This document shows positions 45,903 through 52,343 of a stretch of DNA of 64,000 nucleotides, piece by piece. The position numbers and the translations under genes were made by a program. Under the pieces are notes generated by a model. It saw nothing but the letters and a program-made list of their open reading frames with translations. It searched no databases and had not been told where the DNA came from. Origin of the DNA: Prochlorococcus marinus str. MIT 9515 (GTDB lineage Bacteria > Cyanobacteriota > Cyanobacteriia > PCC-6307 > Cyanobiaceae); assembly GCF_000015665.1 (NCBI RefSeq), contig NC_008817.1, positions 930,001 through 994,000 of the forward strand, written 5' to 3'. Positions within the stretch are counted from its first letter, which is position 1; the number at the start of each line of letters is the position of its first letter.

Positions 45903-46187
45903 TCATTTTTTATCAATTTCTTTATCAATCAGAGCAATTAATGGAACCATAAAATTTACATTTATTCCTACTGTGCACCATACATAAGTAACACAGAATA
46001 TCAATTTAATATATATGTTAGAAGGTAAAGAGAGAAACAATTTAAAAAAACTACCAATAAATAATATTAAAATTCCTATTTGCAAGAAACCTTTTGCTAT
46101 TAATAGTAAACTTTGTTTCTTAATGTTCTTATAGACCATAAAAAATAAAGTTCCAAATATTAATAATGTAATTAAATTTATCATCAT
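45903..46187 (-). CDS. Small multi-span membrane protein
   Basis: A 94-residue protein with three hydrophobic segments (LITLLIFGTLFFMVY, LQIGILILFIGSFFKLFL, CVTYVWCTVGINVNFMVPLIAL). Its start lies three bases from a nine-base tandem repeat array, which therefore forms its 5' flank. Function unknown. Confidence 0.55.
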   Translation of the reverse strand: MMINLITLLIFGTLFFMVYKNIKKQSLLLIAKGFLQIGILILFIGSFFKLFLSLPSNIYIKLIFCVTYVWCTVGINVNFMVPLIALIDKEIDKK

Positions 46188-47064: not shown

Positions 47065-47355
47065 GTGGAATTAACTGAACTAATAAGAGATTATGTAGCC
47101 ACAGAACTACTCTCTAATATTGAACTAGACTTTCTAGAGGGAGAACTATGGGAAACAATTCAACATATATCAGAGATAAATTCGTTAATTTTGGCTCCAA
47201 GGGATATATGCAAGAAATTAGAACTTCAAGAAAAATCAAGTTGGCATTTATGTTGTGCTGCTGTTCTTGATTTATCAAGACCTTTAAAAGAGAAAAATGA
47301 AAGAGTTGATAAACTCAACAAACTAATAGTTAAATATAATCTTGGCAATAAATAA
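47065..47355 (+). CDS. Conserved small helical protein
   Basis: A 96-residue protein starting at GTG 47065 (an ATG at 47060 is out of frame). Acidic N-terminal half (IELDFLEGELWETIQHI), then a CKKLELQEKSSWHLCCAAVLDL segment with three cysteines. All-helical, no known family. It converges on the Yfr2-like RNA gene, whose terminator overlaps its last bases. Confidence 0.6.
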   Translation: MELTELIRDYVATELLSNIELDFLEGELWETIQHISEINSLILAPRDICKKLELQEKSSWHLCCAAVLDLSRPLKEKNERVDKLNKLIVKYNLGNK

Positions 47356-47449
47356 AAAAAAAGACCCCTATAAAAAGGGATCTTGAATAATTTTATTAAA
47401 TCAAGTGTTTCCTTGTTTCCACTGATTTAATAAAACTCTCCTACACACA
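47354..47449 (-). ncRNA. yfr2: Yfr2-family small RNA
   Basis: On the minus strand a perfect 13-base-pair stem (47423-47435 with 47391-47403) closes a 19-base loop reading GTGGAAACAAGGAAACACT. This has the repeated GGAAACA motif that defines Yfr2-type RNAs. A terminator follows (stem 377-383/362-368 of the 47 kb block, then about eight T). A TATTTAAT element upstream would place the start near 47449, giving about 95 nt, as for known members. Its 5' end GTGTGTAGGAG is complementary to the Yfr1-like motif next door. Confidence 0.8.
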
Positions 47450-47520
47450 AATTAAATATCACATGAATTCTCAATAGACGAAATACCTAATGGGCATGTA
47501 TAACAACTGTCACAAGGTTA

Positions 47521-47588
47521 AATAAAAAGTACTCAAACGATCGCTTGAGTACTTCGCATTATCAGAAAAATGTGTGTGAGGAGTTTCT
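47521..47588 (-). ncRNA. yfr1: Yfr1-like small RNA
   Basis: The minus strand contains ACTCCTCACAC (47584 down to 47574), identical to the 11-base core of the cyanobacterial Yfr1 RNA, near the 5' end. AGAAA/TTTCT may close a weak stem around it. Then comes a perfect 10-base-pair terminator stem (47545-47554 with 47527-47536, loop of 8) and TTTTTATT. TTATAA at 47592-47597 is a good -10 site. About 66 nt, as expected for the family. Yfr1 is usually reported near guaB and trxA, which are not here. Confidence 0.75.
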
Positions 47589-47589
47589 G

Positions 47590-48013
47590 ACTTTATAAAT
47601 CTACACTTAGTTGAAGTAAAAGGCCTACGGTATAAATCCTCATTTATATTTAATTTATTAAATATAACTAGAGTAATTATGTGATAGAAGTATATTAAAA
47701 ATGAAAAAAAAGAACCAAAAAATAATTTACACCTTTTCTGAAATCATCCATTTTTCAATTATTGGAGGCATTGCATAATATTCTCTTAGATATTTTGATA
47801 AGAATCTAGATAAATAAATCCTTAGACAAAGATATTAACTATTTAAATCGTTTTTCAATAGATTTCTAAAAGTAATTTGCAAATTTCACTAAATATTTAA
47901 AGATGTTCAAATCTAAAACCTCTAAAAAAGAAATATGGATAATTTTTAAGTATAAATCCACTTTAAAAAAAAACAAAACTATCTTATAAACTTCTCAACG
48001 ATTGGAGGATTTT
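47590..48013. other. Region upstream of the small RNA genes, no gene called
   Basis: About 420 bases holding the promoter of the Yfr1-like gene at its left edge. A 25-codon frame from ATG 47701 (MKKKNQKIIYTFSEIIHFSI) is too short to support. No further hairpins noted. Confidence 0.35.
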
Positions 48014-48654: not shown

Positions 48655-49443
48655 TTAAAATTTAAATCCAATTTTTGGAATTACCAATGAAGCAACGCAA
48701 ATGACGCTTATTGCTGGCCCGGGAGATAAGTTAAATACAATTGAAAGTATAAAACCTAATAAGGAAATACAAAGCCCAAAAAAAGAAGATCTCATCATAG
48801 CAATCCTAAGACTTTGCGCTTTATCAAGTCCCAATAAAGTAGGAGTTGATAGTAATGCAATTACAAGAATAACTCCGACAGCAGACATCGAACTAACAAT
48901 AACTAGCGCAGTAGTAAAGCTTAGAGCTAAGTTTAATAAAGAGACATTTATTCCATTAGCTGAAGCCCCTTCTGGATCTAATCCCACATACACAATTTTT
49001 TCATATCCAAAAGATATTAATGAAATAAATGCCAGAAAAGCAATAATGGTTCTCAATAGATCGCTAAAGTTTGCAGTTAATAAATCTCCAAATAAAACTG
49101 CCTCTAAATCAATTCTTATACCAAGAAGGGGAATAAGCAAAACCCCAAAACCAAGCATTCCTGCAAGAATTGTATTCATTACTGCTTCATAATTTTCACT
49201 TTTTTTGTTTGTTAAACTTTCTGCAATAATTGAACCAACAAGACCACTAATAACACCTCCAATTGAAGGATGAATGCCAAGTGCTAAAGCGAGCGCAAGT
49301 CCTGGTAATACGCAATGAGAAATTAAATTTACTTGTAATAATCTTCTATGAGTTATTAATACAGTTCCCATTGCAGGGCATAAAATTCCGGAGAAAATAG
49401 TAATTATTAAAGGAATTAACCACCAGTTGTTTATAAAAGACAT
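48655..49443 (-). CDS. znuB: Zinc ABC transporter permease ZnuB
   Basis: A 262-residue ABC-3 family permease with about eight hydrophobic segments. LITHRRLLQVNLISHCVLPGLALALALG and ENYEAVMNTILAGMLGFGVLL are typical of ZnuB and MntB proteins. With ZnuA and ZnuC it imports zinc across the inner membrane. It is on the same strand as znuC, but the zur gene lies between them in opposite orientation, so a znuC-znuB transcript would run antisense through zur. Confidence 0.92.
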   Translation of the reverse strand: MSFINNWWLIPLIITIFSGILCPAMGTVLITHRRLLQVNLISHCVLPGLALALALGIHPSIGGVISGLVGSIIAESLTNKKSENYEAVMNTILAGMLGFGVLLIPLLGIRIDLEAVLFGDLLTANFSDLLRTIIAFLAFISLISFGYEKIVYVGLDPEGASANGINVSLLNLALSFTTALVIVSSMSAVGVILVIALLSTPTLLGLDKAQSLRIAMMRSSFFGLCISLLGFILSIVFNLSPGPAISVICVASLVIPKIGFKF

Positions 49444-49490
49444 TAATCGTATGATTCGTTATGATCAAAAAAAGATGATTTAAAAAGATC

Positions 49491-49907
49491 TTGAAAAATA
49501 TGGTAACCAAGCCTGACATTACCAAAAGACAAGAGCAACTTCTTGAAGAACTTAATAAATGTGATGATGAATTGAGCGGTCAGGAATTGCATAGACAACT
49601 GATTATTGATGGCAAATCTATGGGTTTGACAACAGTTTATAGAAATCTTCAAGTTCTTATAAAACATGGCTTAATTAGATCTAGACATCTCCCAACCGGA
49701 GAAGTCCTTTACACACCTGTTGATAGAGATATTCACCATGTGACATGTGTTCAATGCGGAACAACATCGAAGATGGAGGGTTGTCCTGTAAAAGATATAA
49801 ATACTCCCAATAAAAAACCAAAAAAATTTCAATTATTGTTTCATACACTTGAATATTTCGGTATTTGCCAAAACTGCGATCAATCTCAAAGTAAAAACCA
49901 GATATAG
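49491..49907 (+). CDS. zur: Fur-family zinc regulator Zur
   Basis: A 138-residue Fur-family repressor. A winged-helix part (TKRQEQLLEELNKCDDELSGQELH, then LTTVYRNLQVLIKHGLI) is followed by a dimerisation part with HHVTCVQCG and CQNC, the two CxxC pairs of the structural zinc site. Its place inside znu genes identifies it as Zur rather than Fur. It would repress znu genes when zinc is sufficient through the sites at 50783 and 52366. Confidence 0.92.
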   Translation: MKNMVTKPDITKRQEQLLEELNKCDDELSGQELHRQLIIDGKSMGLTTVYRNLQVLIKHGLIRSRHLPTGEVLYTPVDRDIHHVTCVQCGTTSKMEGCPVKDINTPNKKPKKFQLLFHTLEYFGICQNCDQSQSKNQI

Positions 49908-49909
49908 TC

Positions 49910-50680
49910 TTAATCACAACAAGCATTTTCCTCTAAGCTACTAATATTCATATCTTCCAATTTATCTTTTATTGAACTTGGACTCCCACAAGCTAGTACT
50001 GTTTTATCGAGAACAATTACTTGATCATAACTATTTAAAGAATCTCCCCAATCATGACTACTTATAAATAAAGATAAGCCCGCATCTGCAAGCTGACGTA
50101 CTATCTTGAGAAAATCATCTTTAGCAGGAGGATCCAATGCCGCGCATGGTTCATCTAAAAGAAGAATCCTTGCCGGAGAAATTAAAGTTTTAGCCAAAAG
50201 GGCCCTTTGTTGTTGTCCGCCAGAAAGAGAATCAAGTCTTCTTTTTCCGATATTTGAGATCCCAACTCTTTGCATTGTTGCTTCCAATTCACAACACTTA
50301 TTGACCCAGGATTTAGGATTTGCGAGGAGATCTTTTATTTGAAACGGATTAGTGCTTTTTGATTTTGAATATTTTATTTGGCCTAATGAGACTAGTTTTT
50401 CAACTGTAATAGGAAATTTCCAATTCATCGAACTTCGCTGGGGCATCAATGCAACTTCCGATCTAACATTAACTAAACTTTCCCCATCAATAGTTATATT
50501 GCCAATATCAGGATTATGTTGTCCTTGCAATAATCTTAAAAGAGTAGATTTACCAGCTCCATTTGGCCCCACAAGAGCGGTTAGTGTTCCTGGTTTTATG
50601 GAAACCGATACATTATTTAAAGCTGGTTTATTTTTTCTAGAGTAAGAATAAGTTAAATTATCTGCAACTAAAGTAGGCAT
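49910..50680 (-). CDS. znuC: Zinc ABC transporter ATP-binding protein ZnuC
   Basis: A 256-residue ABC ATPase. Walker A GPNGAGKST, signature LSGGQQQRALLAK, Walker B ILLLDEPCAALD and the switch ISSHDWGD are all intact. It powers ZnuB. The gene is divergent from znuA, with a Zur-box-like palindrome in the shared promoter region, and convergent with zur (two bases apart). Confidence 0.93.
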   Translation of the reverse strand: MPTLVADNLTYSYSRKNKPALNNVSVSIKPGTLTALVGPNGAGKSTLLRLLQGQHNPDIGNITIDGESLVNVRSEVALMPQRSSMNWKFPITVEKLVSLGQIKYSKSKSTNPFQIKDLLANPKSWVNKCCELEATMQRVGISNIGKRRLDSLSGGQQQRALLAKTLISPARILLLDEPCAALDPPAKDDFLKIVRQLADAGLSLFISSHDWGDSLNSYDQVIVLDKTVLACGSPSSIKDKLEDMNISSLEENACCD

Positions 50681-50782
50681 AAAATAAAGTAATTAAAAAA
50701 ACATCAATGAATCAAGTTTATCAATATAAAAATTTTTATACTTTTTTCATAACAAATCCTATTAAATGATTGCCAATTAAAA

Positions 50783-50819
50783 TGAAAACGATTATCATTA
50801 TTATGATAACATATTTTCA
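50783..50819. promoter_or_regulatory. Zur-box-like palindrome between znuC and znuA
   Basis: TTATCAT (50792-50798) and ATGATAA (50803-50809) form a perfect 7-base inverted repeat with a four-base spacer, and TGAAAA (50783) and TTTTCA (50819) extend the symmetry. It lies just before the znuA start and about 110 bases from the znuC start, where a repressor could control both. Confidence 0.8.
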
Positions 50820-50822
50820 TTT

Positions 50823-52343
50823 ATGTCTATTTTCAAAAAACTTCTTATTAAAAAAAACGAGAAATCTAATAAATCGCTTTTAAAAACTACTTTAGTTGCT
50901 GGGAGTATATTATTTTCAACTGTTGGACAAGATGTTTTAGCGGAAGGTAAATCATATGTAGCTGTAGAGCCATTCGTCTGTGATTTAGTTAAATCAATAG
51001 CATTAACTTCTGACAAGGTAACTTGTTTGGTTGATAGAAAAGAAGATGTGCATGACTTGAAAATCACTCCAAGACAGGCTCAATTACTTAACAATGCGGA
51101 TAAAGTTTTTACTTTAGGGAAAGAAATGAATCCAACCATGAAAAATTGGGAAAGTAAAAAGCAAACTGTTGTTGTAGGTGTTAGCGCAATAGATGTAGAT
51201 GATCACTCAGATCATGGAGGACATGATGATCACGATGAACATTCAGCTAAGGTAGATGATCACTCTGATCATGGAGGTCATGATGACCATTCAGACTATG
51301 GTGGACATGATGAACATGCTGAGGGTGCTTTCGAATGGGCAGGAAAATTCCAGCTATCTAAGGGTTCTTACAAATGGTCATTTGAAAAAGTCGATGGCGA
51401 ATATGCAGATCCTGCAATGAAGATGGTGATTCTCAAATCTAATGACATAGAAGGGTCTGAAGATTTAGCTAAAGAACTATTAGGATCTAAAGACTCAATA
51501 ATCAAGAAAAATAATGATACTTTGATCGCAAGTAATAAAGCTTTTGTTCTTAACTTTGATCAAAGAAAAGAAAGCACTGTATTTAACGTGGATATTAAAG
51601 AAGATGGTCAATATATATTTTTTACTGAACACATGCCTTTTGAGTTTGAAGCAACTCAACACTTTTTTAAAGACGTTTTAAATAGTGATGTCGAGCCAAT
51701 AGCACAAGTACCAGATGAAGGGGATGGGCATCATCACCATCATGACCATGGAGGTCTAGATCCACATGTATGGCATGATCCACATAACATCATAAAAATG
51801 GGTGAAGTAGTAAGTAAAAATTTAAAGAAAGATATCTCTGTTTTTAATAGATCTGACAGGAGATTAATCAATGAGAGTTTTACTTCTGTGGAGTCAACAC
51901 TAGAAGAACTTGATAGCTGGATTGTTAAACAGGTTTCAACAATTCCAAAGGCAAATCGAATTATTGTTTCTAAACATAATGCTATGCAATATTACGGAGA
52001 TGCATTTGGATTTAAAATTATTAGCTTACTTGATTCTTTAGGGGAATCATCAAGCTTAAGACCAGAAAAAATTAAATCTACTTTAGAAGAACTCAAGAAA
52101 GATAATGTGAAAGTATTGTTCTCTGAGCAGAAGCCTGTCTCAAAGTTAATAAAAAACCTAAGCAGACAAAGTTCAATACCTCTTTCTTCTGATCAAATAT
52201 ATAGTGATGGACTAATGATGACAGGAAATACAGTTTCAGTGGCAGTTCACAATACATGTACAATTGTTAACTCATTAGGTGGATCATGTGATGAAGAATT
52301 TGGGTCTATCATAGAAAATAAATGGGATTCTCTCTCAAATTAA
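50823..52343 (+). CDS. znuA: Zinc-binding protein ZnuA with inserted domain
   Basis: A 506-residue A-1 family metal-binding lipoprotein-like protein, far longer than the usual 300 or so. A signal segment (TTLVAGSILFSTVG) precedes the first lobe. Two His/Asp-rich stretches (about residues 122-165, and 301-312 with GHHHHHDHGG) flank an inserted domain of about 130 residues starting FEWAGKFQLSKGSYKWSFEK. After that LDPHVWHDPHN and the second lobe resume. The insertion may store or sense metal. It has its own Zur-box-like site. Confidence 0.92.
   Translation: MSIFKKLLIKKNEKSNKSLLKTTLVAGSILFSTVGQDVLAEGKSYVAVEPFVCDLVKSIALTSDKVTCLVDRKEDVHDLKITPRQAQLLNNADKVFTLGKEMNPTMKNWESKKQTVVVGVSAIDVDDHSDHGGHDDHDEHSAKVDDHSDHGGHDDHSDYGGHDEHAEGAFEWAGKFQLSKGSYKWSFEKVDGEYADPAMKMVILKSNDIEGSEDLAKELLGSKDSIIKKNNDTLIASNKAFVLNFDQRKESTVFNVDIKEDGQYIFFTEHMPFEFEATQHFFKDVLNSDVEPIAQVPDEGDGHHHHHDHGGLDPHVWHDPHNIIKMGEVVSKNLKKDISVFNRSDRRLINESFTSVESTLEELDSWIVKQVSTIPKANRIIVSKHNAMQYYGDAFGFKIISLLDSLGESSSLRPEKIKSTLEELKKDNVKVLFSEQKPVSKLIKNLSRQSSIPLSSDQIYSDGLMMTGNTVSVAVHNTCTIVNSLGGSCDEEFGSIIENKWDSLSN

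Follow-up and report, generated by a model that had tools for sequence, protein, structure and literature searches.

A tandem of Yfr10- and Yfr2-family small RNA genes with complementary segments in Prochlorococcus marinus MIT9515

Prochlorococcus, with its small number of protein regulators, depends on small RNAs (sRNAs). The closest described relatives of the locus analysed here are sRNA genes of strain MED4, for which a table published in 2008 gives Yfr10/Yfr2, Yfr12/Yfr4, Yfr18/Yfr5 and Yfr15/Yfr3 as neighbours (Steglich 2008, PMC2518516). Passages of the same paper print the adjacency of Yfr18 and Yfr5 in MED4, write out the pairing of aCUCCUcACACAC with GUGUGUAGGAG, bulged C included, and list Yfr18 for MIT9515, and Yfr10 and Yfr12 only for MIT9301 and MIT9312. 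According to passages of a second paper, a Yfr2 bait pulls down Yfr1 and Yfr10, Yfr2 relieves the repression of a reporter by Yfr1 in Escherichia coli, and bound Yfr2 is shielded from RNase E, with binding, relief and protection all observed for MED4 RNAs in vitro, in lysate or in E. coli (Lambrecht 2019, PMC6778093). The functional interplay of Yfr1 and Yfr2 to which the first-pass annotation of our locus had appealed is therefore in the literature. The pull-down baits in MED4 were Yfr1, Yfr2 and Yfr10; Yfr2 homologues were largely recovered with the Yfr1 and Yfr10 baits, with enrichment of Yfr3, Yfr4 and Yfr5, and the Yfr10 bait enriched Yfr2 itself only slightly (PMC6778093). Yfr18 is absent from the main text of this paper, which in the relevant passages places Yfr10 homologues upstream of Yfr2 homologues in high-light-adapted strains and describes a Yfr1/Yfr10-Yfr2 network touching carbon and nitrogen metabolism. 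Passages of two further papers deal with Yfr103 (PMC5069720) and with Yfr106-108 (PMC7368042). The adjacency, the base pairing with its bulged C and the presence of Yfr18 in MIT9515 have been in print since 2008, and the binding of Yfr1 and Yfr10 by Yfr2 since 2019, so the finding is already known. The present analysis establishes the identity, orthology, conservation and complementarity of the two genes, and that there is no cognate preference in predicted energies.

The stretch of DNA that we analysed (the window, 64 kb) corresponds to bases 930001-994000 of the 1,704,176-base MIT9515 genome. The minus strand at 47354-47591 holds a pair of compact RNA genes, each followed by a terminator-like hairpin, and a cmscan search of the whole 64-kb window at gathering thresholds gave three Rfam matches, namely Yfr10, Cyano-1 and one tRNA. 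The first gene (47513-47591, minus strand) matches RF02362 (Yfr10) with 78 bits against a cut-off of 43, covering model positions 1-78 of 78, and the second (47385-47450, minus strand) matches RF01701 (Cyano-1, the Yfr2 family) with 66.4 bits against a cut-off of 41. Two RNA-like units in tandem on the minus strand had been proposed from the DNA letters, one of them Yfr2-like with a long stem whose loop holds two GGAAACA motifs; both units were found where they had been placed, each with an Rfam match, and the GGAAACA motifs are present in the unit matched by RF01701. The covariance models thus agree with the proposal as far as the Yfr2 family is concerned, while the other, motif-bearing unit proved to belong to RF02362 (Yfr10) and not to RF01116 (Yfr1). 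We consider it very probable that the locus is a pair of known sRNA genes, orthologues of Yfr18 and Yfr5, in which the second RNA would engage in decoy pairing and the neighbourhood would couple synthesis rather than provide specificity.

The assignment to Yfr18 and Yfr5 draws on the family matches, on alignment with MED4 and on flanking ORFs (first gene) or synteny (second gene). The window pair aligns with MED4 Yfr18-Yfr5 at 81% identity over 268 bp (252 bits), whereas MED4 Yfr10-Yfr2 gives two shorter pieces only (94 and 49 bits). By eye, the flanking ORFs are alike in MED4: in both strains a 96-aa ORF follows the second gene, and on the far side of the first gene lie a small ORF and then ABC-transporter-like genes. 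Judged by locus and nearest sequence, the window pair is the orthologue of MED4 Yfr18-Yfr5. The two share order, strand, motif and leader, as well as the pairing with the bulged C in the form printed in passages of the 2008 paper (PMC2518516), and they have similar spacer elements and flanking ORFs. Small indels, few in number, distinguish them, among them six bases close to the 5' end as printed. MED4 Yfr10-Yfr2 has the same architecture and pairing, and RF02362 matches it too, but it represents a paralogous class with another terminator stem in another genomic place; the motif-to-core distance in MED4 is 186 in Yfr10-Yfr2 compared with 165 in Yfr18-Yfr5. In the genome that we take to be that of MED4, the best Yfr10-model match, 346661-346738, has exactly the coordinates printed for Yfr10. 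The Cyano-1 model has four matches there, in line with the known members Yfr2-Yfr5 by their places among the matches listed, and GTGGAAACAAGGAAACAC cores occur in all four MED4 stretches, beside Yfr10, Yfr12, Yfr18 and Yfr15. What is seen at the locus in this second strain is consistent with the MED4 picture, and by analogy we infer that the MIT9515 pair would behave like the MED4 RNAs, with its Yfr2-family copy binding Yfr1 and Yfr10 as the MED4 members do.

The first gene contains the 11-base Yfr1-type motif that had been noticed in one of the units, ACTCCTCACAC, at 47574-47584, within the longer form ACTCCTCACACAC at 47572-47584 (minus strand). Exact matches to the 13-base ACTCCTCACACAC occur at only two places in the genome, the window unit and yfr1, and this identity speaks for a yfr1 gene relocated away from guaB/trxA, as the first-pass annotation had it. 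However, the genome's sole RF01116 (Yfr1) match is at 1002098-1002151, which is 24.5 kb from the window pair and flanked by guaB-like and trxA-like ORFs that we take to be guaB and trxA. Since the only RF01116 match sits between these ORFs and RF02362 is the model that hits the window unit, the motif unit is no relocated yfr1 gene, and the real yfr1 is in its usual place. The two share the 13-base motif and differ in fold and place: in the canonical yfr1 of the same genome the motif, by eye, comes after a GGGG/CCCC stretch and before a terminator-like stretch, whereas in the window unit it lies in a hairpin loop of the predicted fold. The window unit was accordingly rejected as a candidate Yfr1, having neither an RF01116 match nor the guaB-trxA location, and relocation is almost certainly the wrong explanation.

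In the predicted fold of the first RNA, the ACUCCUCACACAC motif is found in the loop, with an unpaired probability of approximately 1 from the first C onwards and the leading A mostly paired; ACUCCUCACAC thus occupies the first-hairpin loop, as in the Yfr10 family, apart from this A. The second RNA carries the leader GTGTGTAGGAG (47438-47448, minus strand), which by sequence and duplex energy is the complement of the motif apart from a bulged C. Its predicted fold leaves GUGUGUA of the leader unpaired and has the next GGA (of AGGAG) mostly paired, suggesting that the leader is only partly exposed. A scan for terminator-like sites placed one hairpin at 47526-47555 in the Yfr10/Yfr18 unit and one at 47361-47384 in the Yfr2-family unit (both minus strand), and counted three sites in the locus, two of them nested, against a shuffle mean of 0.1. 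A 10-bp terminator had been described for the motif unit; a terminator-like hairpin is indeed there, and it scores as 13 pairs when G-T is allowed.

Motif and leader pair in the register CUCCU-c-ACACAC (motif) against GUGUGU-AGGAG (leader), which confirms that the leader GTGTGTAGGAG is complementary to the 11-base motif except for one bulged base, as originally claimed. For short segments around both stretches we obtained a predicted duplex energy of -17.0 kcal/mol, a value that 5 of 5000 sequences attained after dinucleotide shuffling and 8 of 5000 after simple shuffling. When only the loop and tail were shuffled, 0 of 1000 sequences attained the co-fold gain of -10.1 (minimum -9.6); after shuffling of the whole sequence, 79 of 1000 did. 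The raw duplex energy over the whole length is not unusual compared with chance, the same value being reached by 1189 of 2000 shuffles. What sets the complementarity apart is chiefly its conservation.

Among 266 genomes of the genus, Cyano-1 is present in at least 230 and Yfr10 in at least 219 (215 above the cut-off), and each is found in at least 84 of the 87 near-complete genomes. A strict tandem pattern was detected in at least 174 of 266 genus genomes and at least 70 of 87 near-complete ones, and a similar pattern in 102 of 400 genomes and 6 of 59 genera of the family, all of these counts coming from exact patterns that miss diverged pairs. The reversed tandem pattern, which served as a control, gave 0 genus genomes among the matches listed. 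At the best Yfr10-model loci, a same-strand Yfr2 core lies downstream in 38 of 41; at L019 the core has the opposite orientation, at L018 none was found, and at L055 the motif falls outside the scripted position window, yet the tandem is visible elsewhere in the analysis. Tandem (at least 174/266 genus genomes) and complementarity (most of 187 units) are thus conserved in related strains, and the pair with complementary ends is genuine and widely conserved. Two paralogous classes can be distinguished in the genus, class B, which has the window pair and the shorter distance (100 units), and class A (55 units), in addition to 30 LL-type units; a script assigned to class B the units with a GTACTC-like terminator and a distance below 176 and to class A the rest, which includes some mixed units because the rule is simple. 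Two alignments, A1 and A2, comprise the window with 35 and 29 of 42 sampled units, respectively.

Several other arrangements were seen. L019, from another genus, has its Yfr10-type gene and a Yfr2-like core close together on opposite strands, the core approximately 150 bases past the motif. Among the matches listed, one contig (L158) holds two motif-core tandems approximately 420 bases apart, one genome (G197) has five tandem hits and another (G211) four. With regard to viral carriage, the exact 18-base Yfr2 core was found in two viral_contigs stretches, neither with an Rfam match at gathering score, and a 307-base stretch compared with 50,697 phage records gave zero matches at E 0.01.

The pairing between neighbours was compared across 187 distinct units, fetched by model or pattern among the matches listed and for this reason biased towards intact pairs. 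HL-type and LL-type labels were assigned from the leader sequence, the genomes themselves being known by genus codes. HL-type leaders read GTGTGT-AGGAG (128 units), GTGTGA-AGGAG (16) or GTGTGC-AGGAG (5), LL-type leaders read (T)GTG-AGGAG (30), and eight fall outside both types. The pairing test covered 144 HL-type and 29 LL-type units of the 187; those left out lacked AGGAG (5), had unusual leaders (3) or carried an imperfect motif (6). The LL-type leader pairs with the motif without a bulge. Between the three bases before CTCCT and the three after AGGAG, pairs are formed in 27, 23 and 21 of 29 LL-type units and in 18, 3 and 4 of 144 HL-type units; the fourth flank position is paired in 141 of 144 HL-type units (mostly G-U) and in 0 of 29 LL-type units. 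The bulged and unbulged registers differ by clade, which makes a clade comparison possible, and the difference may represent a single event.

That complementarity is kept in most units, and that the flanks of both partners differ between HL and LL types in a matching manner, both speak for a cognate pair, in which the leader would have co-evolved with the adjoining motif and adjacency would confer private specificity. The LL-type units fit such a pair slightly, with a predicted energy of own minus other partner of -0.51 kcal/mol and own better in 17 of 29. For the HL type, however, own minus other partner is +0.08 kcal/mol, and 73 of 144 units do better with their own partner; flank pairs are retained just as frequently with shuffled partners, and the altered GTGTGA-AGGAG leaders mostly face an unchanged motif among the matches listed. 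Mean energies are -19.9 for HL pairs and -21.6 for LL pairs, and -19.1 and -19.3 for the between-type swaps, which thus lie near the HL value and some 2 kcal/mol short of the LL value. Cognate specificity between neighbours was rejected, own partners being no better than swapped ones in predicted energies, and a co-evolved private pair is highly improbable. By the same predictions, the complementarity is conserved yet shows little sign of being private to the neighbours. The first-pass annotation had stated that the arrangement favours duplex formation, a possibility also raised in a passage of Lambrecht 2019 (PMC6778093); the duplex potential is upheld, but neighbours pair no better than swapped partners. 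That neighbours are not private partners, by predicted energies, is one usable fact from the survey. As a separate observation, the LL-type leader GTGAGGAGTTGAGATCCTCC (L020, L021 and others) by eye holds its own complement, GAGGA/TCCTC, and a leader hairpin and the main stem of LL-type units may be alternative folds.

In the reading that we prefer, Yfr10-type RNAs and Yfr1 would bind mRNAs through the motif ACUCCUCACAC(AC), and the Yfr2-type RNA would act as a decoy, its leader GUGUGUAGGAG binding the motif so that targets are freed, and would be shielded from RNase E while bound. Adjacency would couple the synthesis of both RNAs through read-through and an internal promoter. As Yfr2-type leaders pair about equally with any motif, that of Yfr1 included, coupled synthesis rather than specificity is most likely what adjacency provides; in the predicted energies there is no sign of it conferring specificity, and it may affect co-expression.

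Read-through could also play a different role, if the tandem were mainly one transcript in which cis pairing of motif and leader silences both RNAs until a promoter or terminator shifts their ratio. A 270-nt precursor of Yfr10 and Yfr2 in MED4 is described in a passage of Steglich 2008 (PMC2518516), and the 238-nt stretch of our locus folds with a 12-pair motif-leader helix in cis (MFE -71.1 kcal/mol, z -7.3). A similar cis helix is part of the MFE structure of 177 of 187 units, although this count is not independent evidence because cis pairing follows from trans complementarity. The z of -7.3, in turn, reflects the entire fold with its strong hairpins, and a terminator-like hairpin stands between the two genes. 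We regard cis silencing as unlikely and retain the decoy reading with coupled synthesis.

The main product may be something other than an intact Yfr10-like RNA, since MED4 Yfr18 is reported in the passages concerned with sizes of 76 and 29 nt (Steglich 2008, PMC2518516). Together these make up the printed span of 105 (972284-972388), and, with the 76-nt piece placed 5', the printed lengths suggest a cut that separates motif bases 2 and 3; this order is assumed, and its opposite would put the cut outside the motif. For MED4 Yfr12, the 5' end at 383230 is called processed and placed mid-motif in a passage of the same paper (PMC2518516); from coordinates and sequence, this end coincides with base 7 of the motif, which is the bulging C of the duplex prediction. 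The printed Yfr12 end and the suggested Yfr18 end (76-nt piece 5') therefore each lie within the duplex as predicted. A cut that depends on the duplex would account for these ends: Yfr10-type RNAs would be cut inside the motif because they are duplexed with the neighbouring Yfr2-type leader, in the precursor or in trans, an idea that we find distinctly doubtful. If it were true, the tandem would be a self-processing unit yielding trimmed RNAs, and the bulge, which LL-type pairs lack, would be of importance to cutting.

A short element, TGTGACAGTT, lies between the genes (47505-47514, minus strand) and is a candidate transcription-factor site that recurs in the spacers. With up to one mismatch it occurs in 139 of 157 HL-type units (here every unit that is not LL-type) and 22 of 30 LL-type units, compared with 0 of 187 spacers shuffled once each. 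There are two TGTGACAGTT sites in the MIT9515 genome, no exact one in MED4, and seven and two in two genomes of another genus. In MED4 the form TGTGACAATT is found ahead of the Yfr2, Yfr4 and Yfr5 cores; MED4 Yfr3 has no TGTGACAGTT-type match (up to two mismatches) in the 200 bases upstream, and no motif partner was found near it. The CGRE1 motif was reportedly defined by Lambrecht in 2018. In a passage of the 2019 paper, a GntR regulator binds CGRE1 in yfr2 promoters and regulates two MED4 copies (Lambrecht 2019, PMC6778093), and our guess is that TGTGACAGTT could be such a GntR/CGRE1 site. Conserved columns also revealed a TAATTTATACTGTAG-like element at 47625-47638 (minus strand), approximately 50 bases upstream of the motif, which may serve the first gene as a promoter or factor site and is conserved in the 100 class-B units and more weakly in the 55 class-A units. 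A sigma-70 scan of the locus gave 0 promoter-like sites, below the shuffle mean of 2.8.

The MIT9515 genome holds a second Cyano-1 copy, at genome bases 45910-45978, whose spacer by eye looks similar to the MED4 Yfr4 spacer and contains TGTGACAAGT at two mismatches. No upstream motif partner within two mismatches was found for this copy; a ATTTCTGA stretch upstream of it may be the remnant of a lost one. The existence of a Yfr2-type copy without a motif partner indicates that the tandem is dispensable, and it fits the 2008 table, which in the part concerned has no Yfr12 for MIT9515 (PMC2518516). Finally, 48655-52343 contains, by eye, zinc ABC transporter-like genes (permease, ATPase and a His-rich binding protein) together with a Fur-family regulator, and the order of these zinc transporter-like genes is similar in MED4.
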